Source of the DNA: Halovivax gelatinilyticus | Lineage (GTDB): Archaea; Halobacteriota; Halobacteria; Halobacteriales; Natrialbaceae | Reading direction: 5' to 3' | NCBI RefSeq assembly: GCF_024300625.1 | Contig: NZ_CP101322.1 | Span: 2,679,992 to 2,743,991 of the forward strand | Length of the DNA: 64,000 bases | Shown here: piece after piece, positions 33,799-39,550 of the stretch | Numbering within the stretch: position 1 is the stretch's first letter | Layout of the letters: every line of letters starts with the position of its first letter | The notes under the pieces: generated by a model | Databases searched by the model: none | Told to the model about the DNA's origin: nothing | The model's input: the letters and a program-made list of their open reading frames with translations, nothing else | Position numbers and translations under genes: made by a program

Positions 33799-34051
33799 TG
33801 TCGCCCATTTCGTCGGCGGTCAAATCGGTGTTTCGTTTACTCTGGGGTAACGGGTGACCTCGGAACTAGCCTGAACGAATAAATCCGAGTCGTATTTACG
33901 CGTCACTGGCGAGGAGTAGTTAGGATTCCGATGATTGACGTCTATGCGTTCGACCACGGCCGTCTTCCCCGAGAGCAGCGTGCGAACGGGATGCCGGTCA
34001 TCAGTCATAATATAGTTATATGAGCGAGTACGCCATTCCCAGTAGAGACTG

Positions 34052-35791
34052 ATGTCTGGTTGGACGGATCGTCGAGTGACCCGAAGAGCCCTCCTCGCCT
34101 CGGGAGCTGTCGGTGGGGTCGTCGCAACGGCGGGATGTGCCGATCTAGTCGATCGTCTCTCGCCTGGAAGCGGCGACCAGCTCTCGGTCACCATCACGGC
34201 CGTTCCGGACGACGATGACCGGCAGGTAAACGGCATTTTCTCGATTCTCGAGTCAAATCTCGAAACCGTCGGAATCGACGTGCGCATCGACCTCCGCTCG
34301 CCGCACGACTTTCACGAGCAGATTCTGATGGAAAACGACTTCGACATGTACGTCGGTCACCACCCGGGCGGACGGTCACTCGATTATCTCTATACGTTGT
34401 GTCACTCCGCGTTCGAGAACGATCCCGGCTGGCAGAATCCGTTCGGGTTGACGAATATCGAACTCGACGAACTGCTCGAATTGCAGCGATCGAGTTCCGG
34501 CTCGACGCGACGGGATGCGATCGACGACATCTTGCACACGCTCCTCGTCGAGAAGCCGTTCGTTCCGATCTGTGAACCGATCGAACACCGGCTGGTTAAT
34601 CCAACGAGCTTCGAGGGCTGGATCCCGGACCGATTGGACGACCAGATCGGCTATCTCGATCTCGAACCGATCGGATCGGATGATCGGTTGACCGGGACCG
34701 TAACGGACGCTCGTCCGACGCAGAACGTCAACCCGCTCGCCGTCTATTACCGACGACGAGGCACGATAACGAGCTTACTGTACGACTCGCTCGGCGTTTA
34801 TCTCGATGGAACGTTGACGCCGTGGCTCGCGAGCGACTGGGACGACGGCGGTGATGCGATAACCGTCGAGCTTCGACCGAACAGTCTCTTTCACGACGGC
34901 GAACCGGTAACCGCAGACGACGTCGTCTTTACGTACGACCTGCTGGCCGACCTCTCGCTCGGCCGAACCGAGTCTCCCGTCCCGTCACCGCGGTTTCGAC
35001 GCGAACGATCGCTCGTCGAATCGATCGAGGAGATCGACGCGTCGACCGTCGAACTGACCCTCGATACGAGGGGGCCCCACGCCCCCGATGCGTTGACGAT
35101 ACCGATACTGCCGAAACACGTCTGGCAACCGGTCGTGACCGACCTGGACGAGGAGACGGCGAGCACGGAAGAGTGGCTCAGAGAGGAACTTCTCTCGGAC
35201 GACGTCGATCGAATCGGGAGCGGTCCGTACCAGTATGAGAGCCGGTCGCAAGGAGATCGGTTGACGCTCACTCGGTTCGACGAGCACTTCACGCTAGATG
35301 AGTGGCTCTCGTTACCGGAACCGACTGTCCCGGAGATTCGAGTGCGAAACGTTTCGAACAGCCCGTTGGCCGTCGATCAGGTGGATGGCGGGTCCGCGGC
35401 GGTGACGATGTACCCGCTCGAATCACACGCCGTCCCCGACCAGTCGGAACTGGAACAGGCGGACCTGATCAGTTCGAACGCCCGGTCGTTCTACCACGTC
35501 GGATTCAACGTCAGGCGGTGGCCGTTTACGAACCCTCACTTCCGTCGAGCGGTGGCGTCGTTGATCGACCGCGAGTGGATCGTCTCGTCCGTCTTCGATG
35601 GCCACGCCGAACCGATCTCCGTCCCTCGGTCGGACCGCATCGAAACCGAATACGATTCGTGGGACGGGTCGGATCCGGAGACGCCGTTCGTCGGCGAGGA
35701 TGGCGAACTCGACGAGTCGGCGGCGCGAGACCTCTTCGCAGATACCGGGTTGCGCTACGACGAATCGGGGCGGCTGGTGGTGAACCACTGA
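34052..35791 (+). CDS. Solute-binding lipoprotein (SBP family 5), circularly permuted, copy A
   Basis: A 579-residue extracytoplasmic binding lipoprotein: Tat motif RRALLAS and lipobox ATAGC with Cys29. Residues 44-205 match what is normally the C-terminal lobe of SBP_bac_5 proteins (SVTITAVPDDDDRQV; DFDMYVGHHPGG; NIELDELLELQRSS; EKPFVPICEP). Residues 213-579 match the normal N-terminal and central parts (GTVTDARPTQNVNPLAVYY; LFHDGEPVTADDVVFTYDLL; FYHVGFNVRRWPFTNPHFRR) and stop where the C-lobe would usually follow. The gene overlaps its PAP2 partner by one base (TGATG). No permease or ATPase gene is nearby. Confidence 0.85.
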   Translation: MSGWTDRRVTRRALLASGAVGGVVATAGCADLVDRLSPGSGDQLSVTITAVPDDDDRQVNGIFSILESNLETVGIDVRIDLRSPHDFHEQILMENDFDMYVGHHPGGRSLDYLYTLCHSAFENDPGWQNPFGLTNIELDELLELQRSSSGSTRRDAIDDILHTLLVEKPFVPICEPIEHRLVNPTSFEGWIPDRLDDQIGYLDLEPIGSDDRLTGTVTDARPTQNVNPLAVYYRRRGTITSLLYDSLGVYLDGTLTPWLASDWDDGGDAITVELRPNSLFHDGEPVTADDVVFTYDLLADLSLGRTESPVPSPRFRRERSLVESIEEIDASTVELTLDTRGPHAPDALTIPILPKHVWQPVVTDLDEETASTEEWLREELLSDDVDRIGSGPYQYESRSQGDRLTLTRFDEHFTLDEWLSLPEPTVPEIRVRNVSNSPLAVDQVDGGSAAVTMYPLESHAVPDQSELEQADLISSNARSFYHVGFNVRRWPFTNPHFRRAVASLIDREWIVSSVFDGHAEPISVPRSDRIETEYDSWDGSDPETPFVGEDGELDESAARDLFADTGLRYDESGRLVVNH

Positions 35792-36675
35792 TGCTCGTTT
35801 CGATCCTCTCACGCGTCGCCGTCGTCGTCGCGTTCCTCCTCGTGATCAGCGTGCCGACGATCATCGGTATCGACCGGCTCAAAGCCGCCCTCATCGATTG
35901 GCGAGCACGCGTCCGCGCGGCCATCCCGATCGCGCTCGTGTTGATTCCGGTGTTGCTCATAAACAGCGTGAGTCGCCAGGAGCTCGTCTCGTTCTCCGAG
36001 GAGTACGGCGTCCGGGCGGGTGGGTGGTTTTACTACGTCGAAGGCGAATTCATCCTCGTTTTCCAGGAGTTCGCGAACACGCCGATCACTCAGTACTTTT
36101 CGTTCATATATATCTACGCGTACGTCTTCTTGCTCGTCTTTCCGGTAATCGCGTACTTCACGCTCAGGGAAACGAAGACCCTCCGAATGCTGCTTGCAGC
36201 CTACACGCTGAACTACACGATCGGTGCGATTCTCTACGTCGCCTTCCACGCGTTCGGTCCGCGACAGTACCTCGGTGTCGAAGTAGAGCACATGCTGTAT
36301 GACTTCCAGCCGGCCTACCAGACGTTGACGAGTGAAGTAAACGACTACACGAACGTCTTTCCGTCGTTACACACGTCACTCTCGGCGACGGTGATGATCT
36401 ACGCGCTCCGGACACGTGCCGAATTTCCGCTGTGGGCACCGATCGCGTCGATCATCGCCGTCAGCGTCTGGATCTCGACGATGTATCTCGGGATCCACTG
36501 GGCGATCGACGTCGTCGCCGGACTCGCTCTGGCGGTCTCGTGCGTCGCGATGGCCGACTGGTTGATCGATAGCGGAACATCCGCTCGTCTCGTCGAACCG
36601 ATCACCGCCCGGGTCGAACCACTCTACGACCGCATCGACGGGGCGGATCCGTCGAGCCGCGATCGTAATTCGTGA
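35791..36675 (+). CDS. PAP2-family membrane phosphatase, copy A
   Basis: A 294-residue membrane protein with about six hydrophobic segments. The catalytic motifs are VFPSLHTSLSATV (PSxH-like) and STMYLGIHWAIDVVAG (SxxYxxxHWxxD), as in the Aur1/PAP2_3 branch of acid phosphatases. The usual first KxxxxxxRP motif is not clear. Its ATG overlaps the stop of the binding-protein gene (TGATG), so the two are translated together. Lipid phosphate or polyprenyl phosphate are plausible substrates by family only. Confidence 0.88.
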   Translation: MLVSILSRVAVVVAFLLVISVPTIIGIDRLKAALIDWRARVRAAIPIALVLIPVLLINSVSRQELVSFSEEYGVRAGGWFYYVEGEFILVFQEFANTPITQYFSFIYIYAYVFLLVFPVIAYFTLRETKTLRMLLAAYTLNYTIGAILYVAFHAFGPRQYLGVEVEHMLYDFQPAYQTLTSEVNDYTNVFPSLHTSLSATVMIYALRTRAEFPLWAPIASIIAVSVWISTMYLGIHWAIDVVAGLALAVSCVAMADWLIDSGTSARLVEPITARVEPLYDRIDGADPSSRDRNS

Positions 36676-36790
36676 GAACGATCCGGACCCGAAAACGGTT
36701 CGTCGACCGACACGAACCGGGTTGCTGTGGGGTTCTCGAAGACAATACTGTTATACGGCGCGTGACGAAGGTTCCATACCTCGGTTCGAA

Positions 36791-38530
36791 ATGAGCACGG
36801 CACCCTCCGATTCGCGCCTCACCCGTCGGTCCCTCCTCGCGTCCGCCGCAGCGGGCGGTCTGGCCGTCACGAGCGGGTGCGTCAGAGAAGTACGAAACAT
36901 CGTCCGACGCTCGCCGGATCACAACCTCTCGCTTTCGATCGCGACGGTTCCCGAAGACGACGATCCGCAGGCGACCCAGCTCGCGATGGCCTTAGAGGAG
37001 TCGCTCCAGACGGTCGGGATCGAAACCGACCTCTCTTTTCTCTCGCGAGTCGAGTTCTATCGAGAGATACTGATCAATCACAACTTCGAGCTCTTCGTCG
37101 GTCGACATCCGGGCGGAGGCGATCCGGATTTTCTCTACGAATCGCTCCACTCTCGGTTCTCCGACGAGTGGGGCTGGCAGAACCCGTTCGGATTTACGAA
37201 CATCACGTTCGACGAGCGACTCGATGAGCAACGGAACGCGAACGGCGAAGATCGGGAACGGGCCGTTAACGACCTCCTACTGGCGATCGGCAACGAACAA
37301 CCGTTCACGCCGATCTGTCGGCCCCGCGAGTTGCGACTCGCGGATACGGACGCGTTCGAGGGCTGGGGCCGCTACGCGTTCTCCAACCGATTGACCTACA
37401 GCGGGCTCTCCGCCGACGAGGACGGTTCCGAACTTCGAGGCCTCGTAACTGACGCGCGGCCGACGCAGAACCTGAACCCGCTGTCCGTCGAGTATCGGGA
37501 TCGACAGCTGTTCGTCGATCTGATTTACGACTCGCTCGCCGCCGTAGACGATGGCGAACGAACGCCGTGGCTGGCTGAATCCTGGGAGTGGGATGGATCG
37601 ACGGCGACCGTCAGGCTGCGATCGACGGACTGGCACGACGGGCAGCCGGTGACGGCAGCCGACGTCGCGTTCACGTTCGAACTGCTCAGGGACACCTCGC
37701 TCGGCGAATCGGACGTACCGTCGCCGGCACCGATCTACCGCGGGCGCGCCACTGCCATCGATGGGGTCGACGTGATCGACGACGACGAGCTGGAACTCAC
37801 CGCCGCCGGCGAAGCCGACGCCGCTGAGAGCGCCTTCACCATCCCGGTCCTGCCGGAACACGTCTGGTCCGACCGGACGGAAGAGGCTTCGATCACCGGA
37901 ATCGACACGGCCGAAGGGACGACGACGGCGGTGGTCACGGACAACGTTCCGCCGATCGGAAGCGGCCTATACGAATTCGCCGATCGATCGGAACGTTCTT
38001 CGATCGAACTGACCAGATTCGACGAACACTTCACGTCGAGGTCGCCGGAACTCGACGCGCCGTCGATCGAGACGCTCCGGTTCGACGTCGTTGCGTCGAC
38101 CGGTGCGGCGGTCGAGGCGATCGCCGACGACCACGCCGATTTCACCGCCACGCCGATCAACCCGCTCGTCGTCGACGACCTGGACGTGCCGGAGAACGCA
38201 TCACTCATCGAGCAATCGTCGGAGGGGATGTACGTCGTCGGTTACAACACGCGAATCTCGCCGCTCGGAAATCCCTACTTCCGACAGATTCTGGCGTCGC
38301 TGATCGACAAAGCACACCTCGCCGAGACCGTCTTCGACGGCTACGCCGACCCCGTCGCATCACCGCTCGGCGAGCCCTGGATTCCCAGTGCGCTCCAGTG
38401 GCGAGGTCGAGATCCGGTAACGCCGTTCGTCGGAACCGACGGCGAGTTGAACGAGGCGGCAGCTCGTCAGTCGTTCGAGGACATCGGCTACCGCTTCGAC
38501 GAGGACGGCAACCTCCTGGTTCGGAACTGA
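36791..38530 (+). CDS. Solute-binding lipoprotein (SBP family 5), circularly permuted, copy B
   Basis: A 579-residue paralogue of the protein at 34052-35791, with Tat motif LTRRSLLAS and lipobox TSGC (Cys30). It has the same permuted order: C-lobe-like first (SLSIATVPEDDDPQ; FELFVGRHPGGGDPDFLY; NITFDERLDEQRNA; QPFTPICRPREL), then LVTDARPTQNLNPLSVEYRD, WHDGQPVTAADVAFTFELL, MYVVGYNTRISPLGNPYFRQ and a C-terminus near FEDIGYRFDEDGNLL. Equal length and shared motifs show tandem duplication with the A module. It is followed after about 180 bases by PAP2 copy B. Confidence 0.85.
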   Translation: MSTAPSDSRLTRRSLLASAAAGGLAVTSGCVREVRNIVRRSPDHNLSLSIATVPEDDDPQATQLAMALEESLQTVGIETDLSFLSRVEFYREILINHNFELFVGRHPGGGDPDFLYESLHSRFSDEWGWQNPFGFTNITFDERLDEQRNANGEDRERAVNDLLLAIGNEQPFTPICRPRELRLADTDAFEGWGRYAFSNRLTYSGLSADEDGSELRGLVTDARPTQNLNPLSVEYRDRQLFVDLIYDSLAAVDDGERTPWLAESWEWDGSTATVRLRSTDWHDGQPVTAADVAFTFELLRDTSLGESDVPSPAPIYRGRATAIDGVDVIDDDELELTAAGEADAAESAFTIPVLPEHVWSDRTEEASITGIDTAEGTTTAVVTDNVPPIGSGLYEFADRSERSSIELTRFDEHFTSRSPELDAPSIETLRFDVVASTGAAVEAIADDHADFTATPINPLVVDDLDVPENASLIEQSSEGMYVVGYNTRISPLGNPYFRQILASLIDKAHLAETVFDGYADPVASPLGEPWIPSALQWRGRDPVTPFVGTDGELNEAAARQSFEDIGYRFDEDGNLLVRN

Positions 38531-38713
38531 CGACGCGACCGAAATCGACGATCAACTGGCGACAATCGTCGATGTCGACGCGAAGACCCAGCGCGTGCGA
38601 GCCGGCCGAACACTGAATATCGCACCCGTCGTATTCGATACGAATTCGCGAGCGAGCAGATCGTGCTGGCGATCCGCTCGTCGAAACTCCGAATCACGAC
38701 AGGTGTCGCCTCG

Positions 38714-39550
38714 ATGTTACTACCCGTCCTCGTTCAGCTCGTGGCCGTACTCGCGGCGATGATCGCGATCGCTGCAGCGGTGTTTTTCGATCGGCGGCGG
38801 CTGGTTCAGACCAGAGCGGAGCTCCCGGCGCGCCTTCGCGTCGTCGCGCCGGTGACGGTCGTGTTGATCGCGGTGCTCCTCCTGAATAGCATCATCCGCC
38901 AGTACATTCCGGACATCTCCTGGATTATCGGCTGGGAACTCACCTGGACGTTTTATCAGCTCGAGGGCGACTTCATCGGCTGGATTCAGTCGTTTCAGAC
39001 GCCGATCGCGACGGCGTTCTTTTCGTTCGTCTACGTCTACGGCTACGCGTTCTTGCTCGTCTTTCCGGTGATCGCCTACCTGTTTCTCTCCGATACTCGG
39101 CCGTTGCGGCTCCTGTTGACCGCGTACACGCTAAACTATACGATCGGACCGCTGCTCTACGTCTTTTTCATCGTGTACGGACCGCGAAACTTCGCGGCAG
39201 AGGGGCTACTCTACGACGTTTATCCGCGGTATCAACACCTCACCGGTGAGATAAACCGAAACACGAACGTCTTTCCGTCGCTACACGTCTCGCTCGCGGT
39301 CACCGTCGCGGCGATCGCCTACTCGACCAGGGATACGTATCGAGGCTGGTACTACCTCGCCGCCTTCGGCGCGCTCAGCGTCTCCGTCTCGACGATGTAT
39401 CTCGGCATCCACTGGGCGATCGACGTCGTCGGCGGTCTCGGCCTGGCGGCCGTGAGCGTCTACCTCGCCCACCTGTTCGTCGGTCGGTGGTCAGTGACCG
39501 AACGGATTTGGGTGCTGTATCGTCGGTTCGTCGAACCGACCATCCGCTAA
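38714..39550 (+). CDS. PAP2-family membrane phosphatase, copy B
   Basis: A 278-residue paralogue of 35791-36675. It has the same membrane layout and active-site motifs VFPSLHVSLAVTV and STMYLGIHWAIDVVGG, plus shared VYVYGYAFLLVFPVIAYLFL and YTLNYTIGPLLYV. I start it at the ATG at 38714 (MLLPVLVQL) to match copy A; an in-frame GTG upstream at 38663 is possible. Unlike copy A it is not overlapped with its binding-protein gene. Confidence 0.87.
   Translation: MLLPVLVQLVAVLAAMIAIAAAVFFDRRRLVQTRAELPARLRVVAPVTVVLIAVLLLNSIIRQYIPDISWIIGWELTWTFYQLEGDFIGWIQSFQTPIATAFFSFVYVYGYAFLLVFPVIAYLFLSDTRPLRLLLTAYTLNYTIGPLLYVFFIVYGPRNFAAEGLLYDVYPRYQHLTGEINRNTNVFPSLHVSLAVTVAAIAYSTRDTYRGWYYLAAFGALSVSVSTMYLGIHWAIDVVGGLGLAAVSVYLAHLFVGRWSVTERIWVLYRRFVEPTIR

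Follow-up and report, generated by a model that had tools for sequence, protein, structure and literature searches.

The two pairs of genes at 34052–39550 of the window (the whole stretch of 64 000 nt of Halovivax gelatinilyticus DNA analysed here) probably represent two copies of an envelope module free of ABC components, in which a repurposed solute-binding protein (SBP) lipoprotein is combined with an outward-facing enzyme of lipid phosphates. The SBPs of both pairs belong to family 5 but have a circularly permuted sequence; in their branch the pairing with PAP2 genes is conserved, the partners co-occur and co-diverge, their motifs are retained and no permease is found in the window. The permuted binding protein has apparently parted from its usual importer and accompanies a membrane enzyme instead; the data suggest a bipartite system, so far unrecognised, by which haloarchaea build or repair the cell envelope.

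The two consecutive lipoprotein + PAP2 pairs have all four genes on the forward strand (Table 1). The initial annotation had described tandem modules with lipoproteins of 579 residues each, a TGATG overlap and no transporter subunits nearby, and this description was borne out: the start ATG of PAP2-A falls inside the stop codon of SBP-A, and none of the 33 matches to BPD_transp_1 in the genome lies within the window (contig positions 2679992–2743991). Neither permease nor ATPase genes stand alongside SBP-A and SBP-B; PAP2 genes are directly downstream instead. The two SBPs are 42% identical, the two PAP2 proteins 48% identical over 252 columns. For PAP2-B the start at GTG 38663, given earlier, is possible, but the family alignment favours ATG 38714.

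Table 1. Features of the two SBP–PAP2 gene pairs (window coordinates)
Feature	Coordinates	Strand	Description
SBP-A	34052..35791	+	circularly permuted family-5 solute-binding lipoprotein, 579 aa; Tat-like RR signal, lipobox TAGC
SBP-A residues ~46-193	34187..34630	+	counterpart of canonical family-5 C-terminal lobe, now N-terminal
SBP-A residues ~214-570	34691..35761	+	counterpart of canonical SBP N-terminal part, now C-terminal
TGATG, SBP-A stop / PAP2-A start overlap	35789..35793	+	read in sequence
PAP2-A	35791..36675	+	PAP2_3 (Aur1-like) membrane enzyme; motifs GPR, FPSLH, HWAID
SBP-B	36791..38530	+	circularly permuted family-5 lipoprotein, 579 aa; Tat-like RR signal, lipobox TSGC
SBP-B residues ~43-204	36917..37402	+	transposed C-terminal-lobe segment
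SBP-B residues ~213-575	37427..38515	+	canonical SBP N-terminal part
PAP2-B	38714..39550	+	PAP2_3 (Aur1-like) membrane enzyme; start ATG 38714 from family alignment

Assignment of the lipoproteins to family 5 stood (SBP_bac_5 scores of 149.9 and 129.5 bits for SBP-A and SBP-B, with a curated cut-off of 32.4); what had been overlooked is their circular permutation. In a 2 × 2 segment test with hhalign, the N-terminal segment of the permuted family (∼160 residues) matched the canonical C part with probability 98.8 (E-value 7.7e-17) and the canonical N part with probability 0.2, while the remainder matched the canonical N part with E-value 9.5e-53 and the C part with probability 0.1. When either the permuted or the canonical family was rotated, the score rose from 392 to 484–494 and the alignment became single and continuous. 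The transposed segment was matched in SBP-A (residues 48–195 of the L108 ORF, E-value 4e-6), and SBP-B (residues 118–279 of the L109 ORF) matched the profile of the permuted-family segment with E-value 1e-70; likewise, residues 38–177 of P0001 match residues 458–599 of the canonical L017. Independent phmmer matches to bacterial SBPs agree with the swapped order. A misreading of one divergent pair is thus ruled out by the segment test, the rotation controls and the phmmer matches. The canonical order, with the N part first and the C-terminal lobe last, is found in neither SBP of the window.

The predicted SBP structure aligns with NikZ, AppA and DppA (Z 18–20), residues 211–543 of SBP-B being aligned with residues ∼1–330 of NikZ/DppA. 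Residues 47–205 of the model had no direct match in the structure library, where one domain filled the list of matches; by sequence profiles they are the counterpart of the canonical C-terminal lobe. The matches are to family 5 / cluster C chains, with no cluster B (type I) fold among them.

Among 142 family-5 ORF rows the segment order was permuted in 92, canonical in 18 and undecided in 32. The transposed segment is N-terminal in 27 of the 32 undecided rows and was not seen in the other five (L105, L104, L054:4575, L110 and L194, the last two being the same gene of the Halovivax genome). Natural circular permutation is widespread among archaeal family-5 binding proteins, which are annotated simply as ‘ABC transporter substrate-binding protein’. 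A single clade of all 72 permuted rows, as a test of single versus multiple origin of the permutation, gave an AU p-value of 0.0547.

The permutation is not a mark of coupling to PAP2. SBPs of ABC operons are permuted as well, in the Halovivax genome itself, in other haloarchaea and in four f21-family genomes outside the order (L215–L218). Since permuted SBPs serve ordinary ABC operons, a permuted sequence is in itself neither a sign that transport has been lost nor the adaptation to PAP2. The pairing would have been put in doubt by homologues usually located beside ABC permeases or by PAP2 genes not conserved next to these SBPs; neither is seen in the PAP2-linked branch, although close relatives of the same permuted architecture do adjoin ABC permeases.

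Within this branch a PAP2 gene is directly downstream of the SBP in 99 of 106 cases and not adjacent in seven, so the survey of homologue neighbourhoods, proposed along with the claim of a lipoprotein–PAP2 unit without ABC subunits, found the pairing conserved. A stop/start overlap (TGATG, TAATG or TAGTG) occurs in 38 of the 52 pairs of the first set examined. The paired SBPs have the RR signal in 99/99 cases and the lipobox in 98/99; in their PAP2 partners motifs of FPSLH, GPR and HW..D type are each present in 99/99. Recurrence of the pair across the order, with the SBP detected in 173 of 293 genomes at E-value ≤1e-25, and the conserved motifs together rule out chance or artefact ORFs. Counting against the module, besides the seven SBPs above, are the 19 of 56 PAP2 rows that do not adjoin an SBP. 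Likewise, three of the four genomes of the same genus as the window (L084–L086) keep SBP-B without PAP2-B.

Of 69 genomes from the order, 39 contain the SBP as well as the PAP2 gene; the SBP alone is present in one, PAP2 alone in none, and neither in 29 (Fisher p 1e-18, a value that ignores kinship and overstates independence because the genomes are related). Divergence of the SBP correlates with that of its cognate PAP2 (r 0.90 over 99 pairs), as would be expected anyway for pairs inherited as blocks. At 15 loci with two pairs, the cognate correlation (r 0.853) exceeded all 2000 within-locus swaps (mean 0.336, maximum 0.837). It is highly improbable that the pairing reflects operon inheritance alone, the two products having no functional link: inheritance of tandem blocks alone does yield correlated divergence, but the genes flanking the pair change between families while the pair stays constant, and presence and absence agree even in those five of the 39 genomes in which the two genes are far apart, as well as in all 10 sampled genomes of three genera that hold both states (g45, g52 and g55).

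The initial annotation had called the membrane proteins PAP2 phosphatases. Membership in the PAP2 superfamily was confirmed (PAP2 scores of 38.6 and 40.3 bits, cut-off 27.2), with PAP2_3 the best Pfam family for both (60.7 and 57 bits, cut-off 27). The PAP2 alignment (A3) contains GPR, FPSLH and STMYLGIHWAID. The full PAP2 signature is KX6RP - PSGH - SRX5HX3D; here the catalytic histidines and Asp are kept, and motif 1 lacks its Lys and motif 3 its Arg. A Foldseek search with the PAP2 model gave no match at E-value ≤0.001. Fold matches among IPC synthase/Aur1-Kei1, LpxE and YodM/PgpB range from Z 14.9 to 11.2; the nearest were IPC synthase (14.9) and Aur1-Kei1 (14.4), with LpxE and SMSr close at 13.3. 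One relative is already annotated as ‘inositol phosphorylceramide synthase’. Aur1/IPC-synthase-like PAP2 proteins can be transferases. Because the Pfam assignment and the fold prediction both lean towards this side of the superfamily, ‘phosphatase’ may be too narrow a name. The enzyme probably acts on lipid phosphates. Known Aur1/IPC synthase, LpxE and YodM/PgpB proteins, which share the PAP2 fold, perform outward lipid-phosphate chemistry; we know of no SBP-type partner lipoprotein for any of them. To our knowledge haloarchaea make no sphingolipids, and the substrate must therefore differ from that of Aur1/IPC synthase.

For the module we infer a physical partnership, an active-site orientation, a glycan or lipid substrate and a reaction direction along these lines. 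The lipoprotein, which would derive from a family-5 ABC binding protein of permuted order and is presumably exported by Tat, would sit at the external surface of the membrane, where it would cooperate with the outward-facing, Aur1/IPC-synthase-like PAP2_3 integral-membrane enzyme. The latter would move or remove a phosphorylated head group, either on a lipid or on a glycan linked to one; the SBP may capture and present, or sense, the soluble or head-group portion of the reactants. LpqW, discussed below, is a precedent for this reading, and the GT-C, arylsulfotransferase or ‘WPY’ neighbours outside the window's family speak for it.

An orphan SBP could, on the other hand, feed an ABC permease encoded elsewhere, with PAP2 only stripping phosphate from an extracellular nutrient ahead of its import. 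In favour are the 33 permease-domain matches and numerous Dpp-type operons of the genome, as well as the SBP fold of the PAP2-linked proteins, which is complete although permuted. Yet we think this unlikely: with two unlinked rows among them, these SBPs form one supported group of their own on a long stem (length 0.87, SH-aLRT 100), the permuted SBPs of ABC operons fall in other groups, and the PAP2_3 protein is a membrane enzyme whose relatives act on lipids. Still less probable, in our estimate, is that the SBP is a ligand sensor switching the membrane enzyme on and off, with no delivery of substrate. The conserved 1:1 pairing fits such control, as do two described precedents of binding proteins controlling membrane partners. 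One is LpqW, a lipoprotein described as regulating mycobacterial PIM, lipomannan and LAM; it (2grv) is a fold neighbour of the SBP model (Z 17.7), though with different partners, and we know of no permutation or PAP2 pairing in it. The other is GlnH-GlnX of Corynebacterium, described as a binding protein coupled to a non-ABC membrane protein (PMC9769921), which differs in signalling to a kinase and in having no PAP2. However, the PAP2_3 proteins have no obvious signalling domain, and present evidence does not separate sensing from substrate presentation.

Compared with the Dpp/Opp/Nik SBPs of cluster C, to which sequence family and structure alignment relate them, the SBPs of the window differ in permuted order, in lacking a nearby permease or ATPase and in having a PAP2_3 partner. 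Titles and abstract openings of the open-access papers searched for permuted SBPs, for an SBP–PAP2 link and for PAP2 in haloarchaea or Haloferax reported neither the family-5 permutation nor the link to PAP2. A precedent for the permutation is MglB-2 (Tp0684, ‘type Ic / cluster Bc’) of Treponema pallidum, described as a natural circularly permuted SBP and tethered lipoprotein (PMC4990184). MglB-2 shares the rotated order and lipoprotein nature, but it is a cluster B sugar-binding protein of another fold class and is considered part of an ABC importer.

One SBP branch has apparently parted from ABC importers and follows a lipid-phosphate membrane enzyme through the haloarchaea. Should the partnership prove real, many proteins now annotated as nutrient importers would be subunits for envelope building, and the module would offer a handle on the finishing of haloarchaeal glycolipids or the recycling of lipid carriers outside the cell. 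A more specific reading, which we offer tentatively, is a membrane enzyme complex of a new kind, in which the permuted SBP has become an extracytoplasmic lipoprotein subunit dedicated to an Aur1-like transferase. This transferase would make or modify phosphoglycolipids, or sulfated glycans linked to lipids, at the external surface of haloarchaeal membranes; we know of no enzyme assigned to such a step there. Clustering of neighbours of PAP2-linked loci found no third conserved partner spanning families. With strict criteria, at loci outside family f1, GT-C glycosyltransferase, arylsulfotransferase or ‘WPY’ genes are neighbours at 17 of 41 PAP2-linked loci outside the family of the window, but, against the proposed module, GT-C/arylsulfotransferase surroundings are all but missing from that family itself (2 of 51).

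The tandem arrangement described in the initial annotation was confirmed: the four genes follow one another in a row on the same strand, and both family-5 solute-binding lipoproteins (SBP-A and SBP-B) have 579 residues. The two SBPs are 42% identical end to end and the two PAP2 proteins 48% identical across 252 columns; Pfam assigned the former to SBP_bac_5 and the latter to PAP2_3, both far above cut-off. PAP2-A overlaps SBP-A at TGATG, its start codon beginning within the SBP-A stop. For PAP2-B the ATG at 38714 is a more likely start than the GTG at 38663, because relatives start at that point of the alignment. The statement that ABC transporter subunits are absent nearby held as well, as none of the 33 permease-domain matches in the genome (3.70 Mb; haloarchaeal, as are its named relatives) fell within the window. 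By eye, TATA-like stretches were noticed at a distance of 30-45 bp in front of both SBP-A and SBP-B, an arrangement suggesting that the two modules could be transcribed separately.

Features of the SBP-PAP2 modules and of related loci
Feature	Position	Strand	Remark
SBP-A	34052-35791	+	
PAP2-A	35791-36675	+	
SBP-B	36791-38530	+	
PAP2-B	ending 39550	+	
TATA-like stretches	34008-34022, 36748-36760		
Third permuted family-5 SBP of the same genome	L088 8749-10356 (G000:C1:989 kb)	-	heads DppB, C, D, F operon
636-aa family-5 protein	L194 6162-8069 (G000:C1:2907 kb)	+	adjoins ABC permeases
PAP2-linked SBP without lipobox cysteine	L071 8624-10411	-	
WPY proteins	L156:14403-15587, L138:9992-11110, L146:10100-11362		WPYTSR motif
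GT-C loci	L140, L143, L144, L149, L151, L154, L156, L158, L159, L233, L234, L236		arylsulfotransferase in 10 of 12

Within the family, 119 of 125 genomes and all 29 genera carry the SBP (E ≤ 1e-15); across the order it was found in 173 of 293 genomes, representing 62 of 87 genera (E ≤ 1e-25). Flanking sequence was first retrieved for 57 SBPs: a same-strand PAP2 gene followed 52 of them, and in 38 of these 52 pairs the PAP2 start falls within the SBP stop codon. A survey of homologous neighbourhoods bore out the conserved pairing: 99 of 106 SBPs of the branch (84 loci) had a PAP2 gene downstream. Of the seven exceptions, five are the second of two tandem SBPs (at L068 and L084-L087), and the other two are the SBPs of L140 and L165. 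Among 69 genomes drawn from the order, 39 had both proteins, 29 had neither, none had PAP2 only and a single one had SBP only (G138, 76% complete); since related genomes are not independent, the Fisher p-value overstates the strength of this co-occurrence. At least one adjacent pair was present in 34 of the 39 genomes with both proteins; the genes were far apart in the other five (G146, G148, G159, G174 and G181). In three genera showing both states (g45, g52 and g55) presence of SBP and PAP2 agreed in all 10 sampled genomes, and such co-occurrence is the strongest sign of a shared function. Further PAP2 copies of the same family, located away from any branch SBP, were seen in G060, G050, G062, G075, G151, G176, G137, G165, G128 and G155 (∼40-43% identical to PAP2-B).

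Evolutionary distances of SBPs and PAP2s correlated with r = 0.90 (99 pairs). At 15 loci with two pairs the cognate correlation (0.853) exceeded all of 2000 random within-locus swaps (mean 0.336, maximum 0.837), thus the A partners and the B partners have stayed together; this constancy would also be expected from inheritance of the pair as a block.

Judged by the order of their segments, SBP-A and SBP-B are circular permutants of family-5 SBPs. The main Pfam-matched stretch (residues 255-568 and 258-568, profile positions 2-279 and 3-279 of 368) sits at the C-terminal end of both proteins, with the missing end of the family in front. Residues 255-572 of the SBP-A query (P0001) match residues 175-454 of a canonical SBP (L017), while residues 38-177 match its residues 458-599; the same swap was seen against L018, L019 and L022. 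Comparison of the canonical and natural permuted family profiles gave two blocks in swapped order (E-values 9e-50 and 4.5e-13), and rotation gave one block of 456 columns (E-value 4e-63). Rotating the canonical family instead produced an equal gain (score 484 versus 392), and with both families rotated the gain was lost (393). The transposed segment matched the canonical C part (E-value 7.7e-17) and not the N part (probability 0.2%); the remaining part matched the N part (E-value 9.5e-53) and not the C part (0.1%). The cut falls just ahead of the segment of the C-terminal lobe (canonical columns 382-390), so that the permuted protein begins close to the position of the hinge in canonical SBPs. 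In the predicted structure (pLDDT 74.8, pTM 0.76) residues 211-543, a stretch exclusive of the transposed segment, could be aligned with NikZ, AppA and DppA over roughly the N-terminal 330 residues of these proteins (Z 18-20).

A test of segment order on 142 family-5 ORF rows (including repeats of some genes from the window's genome) called 92 permuted and 18 canonical and left 32 undecided; no PAP2-linked SBP was among those called canonical. When the transposed segment was searched for with its own profile, it lay in front in all 92 permuted rows and in 27 of the 32 undecided ones. Permuted SBPs are also first genes of complete ABC operons in the window's genome, in other haloarchaea, where they are common, and in four genomes of f21 (L215-L218), a family that belongs to the same phylum but not to the order; nine other loci of this phylum (L219-L227) were canonical. 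The 636-aa protein of L194, with a recognisable N part at residues 310-629, may be permuted as well, its front segment having diverged.

A quick tree was built from 101 of 153 rows, with PAP2-linked rows thinned (at random for the window's family). It placed 54 PAP2-linked rows and the unlinked L140 and L165 in one group (SH-aLRT 100, long stem of 0.87); nine permuted haloarchaeal ABC-operon rows formed a separate group (SH-aLRT 89), and seven other permuted ABC rows were elsewhere. The permutation may have arisen once or more often (AU p = 0.0547 for a single origin). The tree is most simply read as one recruitment of a permuted importer SBP to PAP2 in haloarchaea. Within the genus of the window, the B module appears to be in decay: the gap between SBP-B and PAP2-B is 132-183 bp in the window and 321 bp in a further genome (G031), and at L084, L085 and L086 SBP-B is not followed by PAP2.

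The FPSLH, GPR and H-W/L/F/Y-x-x-D motifs were each present in all 99 partner PAP2s (84 fit a stricter S-x-x-H-type expression). The classical PAP2 signature has Lys in motif 1 and Arg in motif 3; the alignment of the partner PAP2s shows neither. The predicted PAP2 fold (pLDDT 77) was nearest to IPC synthase (9vj4, Z 14.9) and Aur1-Kei1 (9ivc, 14.4), followed by LpxE and SMSr (13.3) and YodM (12.0); placement near IPC synthase/Aur1 is tentative, because Foldseek returned no hits for the model at E ≤ 0.001. For the pair in Haloarcula sp. JP-L23 the existing annotation reads 'ABC transporter substrate-binding protein' for the SBP and 'inositol phosphorylceramide synthase' for PAP2. By the positive-inside rule, applied by eye to the PAP2 alignment, the active-site loops would face outward, on the same side as the anchored Tat lipoprotein; all 99 SBPs carry RR, and 98 of them have a lipobox. 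The SBP of L071, which lacks the lipobox cysteine, is probably held in the membrane by its signal helix.

Neighbours of the pair are housekeeping genes in a named relative from the window's family (e.g. RNase P component 4, YhbY). Outside this family a GT-C, arylsulfotransferase or 'WPY' neighbour occurred at 17 of 41 PAP2-branch loci (GT-C, PMT_2-like, at 12; arylsulfotransferase at 10; WPY at 8), the first two mostly on the strand opposite to SBP. Within the window's family such context was present at 2 of 51 loci, and elsewhere at 1 of 26 other loci, apparently L088, itself the source of one WPY query. Pfam support for GT-C is modest (29.9 bits at L236 against a cut-off of 26.1; 25.4 at L143), with no PMT_2 match at L233 and L234. 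WPY proteins (∼370-420 aa) had no Pfam/NCBIfam match in the one member tested; a WPY relative lies ∼6 kb from the L088 importer operon. GT-C and arylsulfotransferase enzymes transfer glycans and sulfate outside the cytoplasm, which suggests loci for such transfer at the outer surface and, for PAP2, a lipid-linked glycan or glycolipid as a possible substrate.

The envelope system proposed initially is partly supported, by the conserved pairing and co-occurrence, and was extended; the function of the module is putative. Most likely, the lipoprotein would capture a head-group or glycan at the outer face and hand it to the PAP2_3 enzyme, or gate the enzyme, which would transfer or remove lipid phosphate. 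In the open-access literature searched (mostly titles and abstract openings) neither the permuted family-5 architecture nor the strict PAP2 partnership appears to have been reported. LpqW, among the fold neighbours of the predicted SBP model and likewise a lipoprotein of binding-protein type, is described in two reports as able to control lipid-glycan synthesis (PMC12421883, PMC3229680). In MglB-2, according to its report, a permuted SBP retained ligand binding, and the authors wondered if permutation suits membrane-tethered proteins (PMC4990184); the permuted SBPs described here are predicted lipoproteins too.
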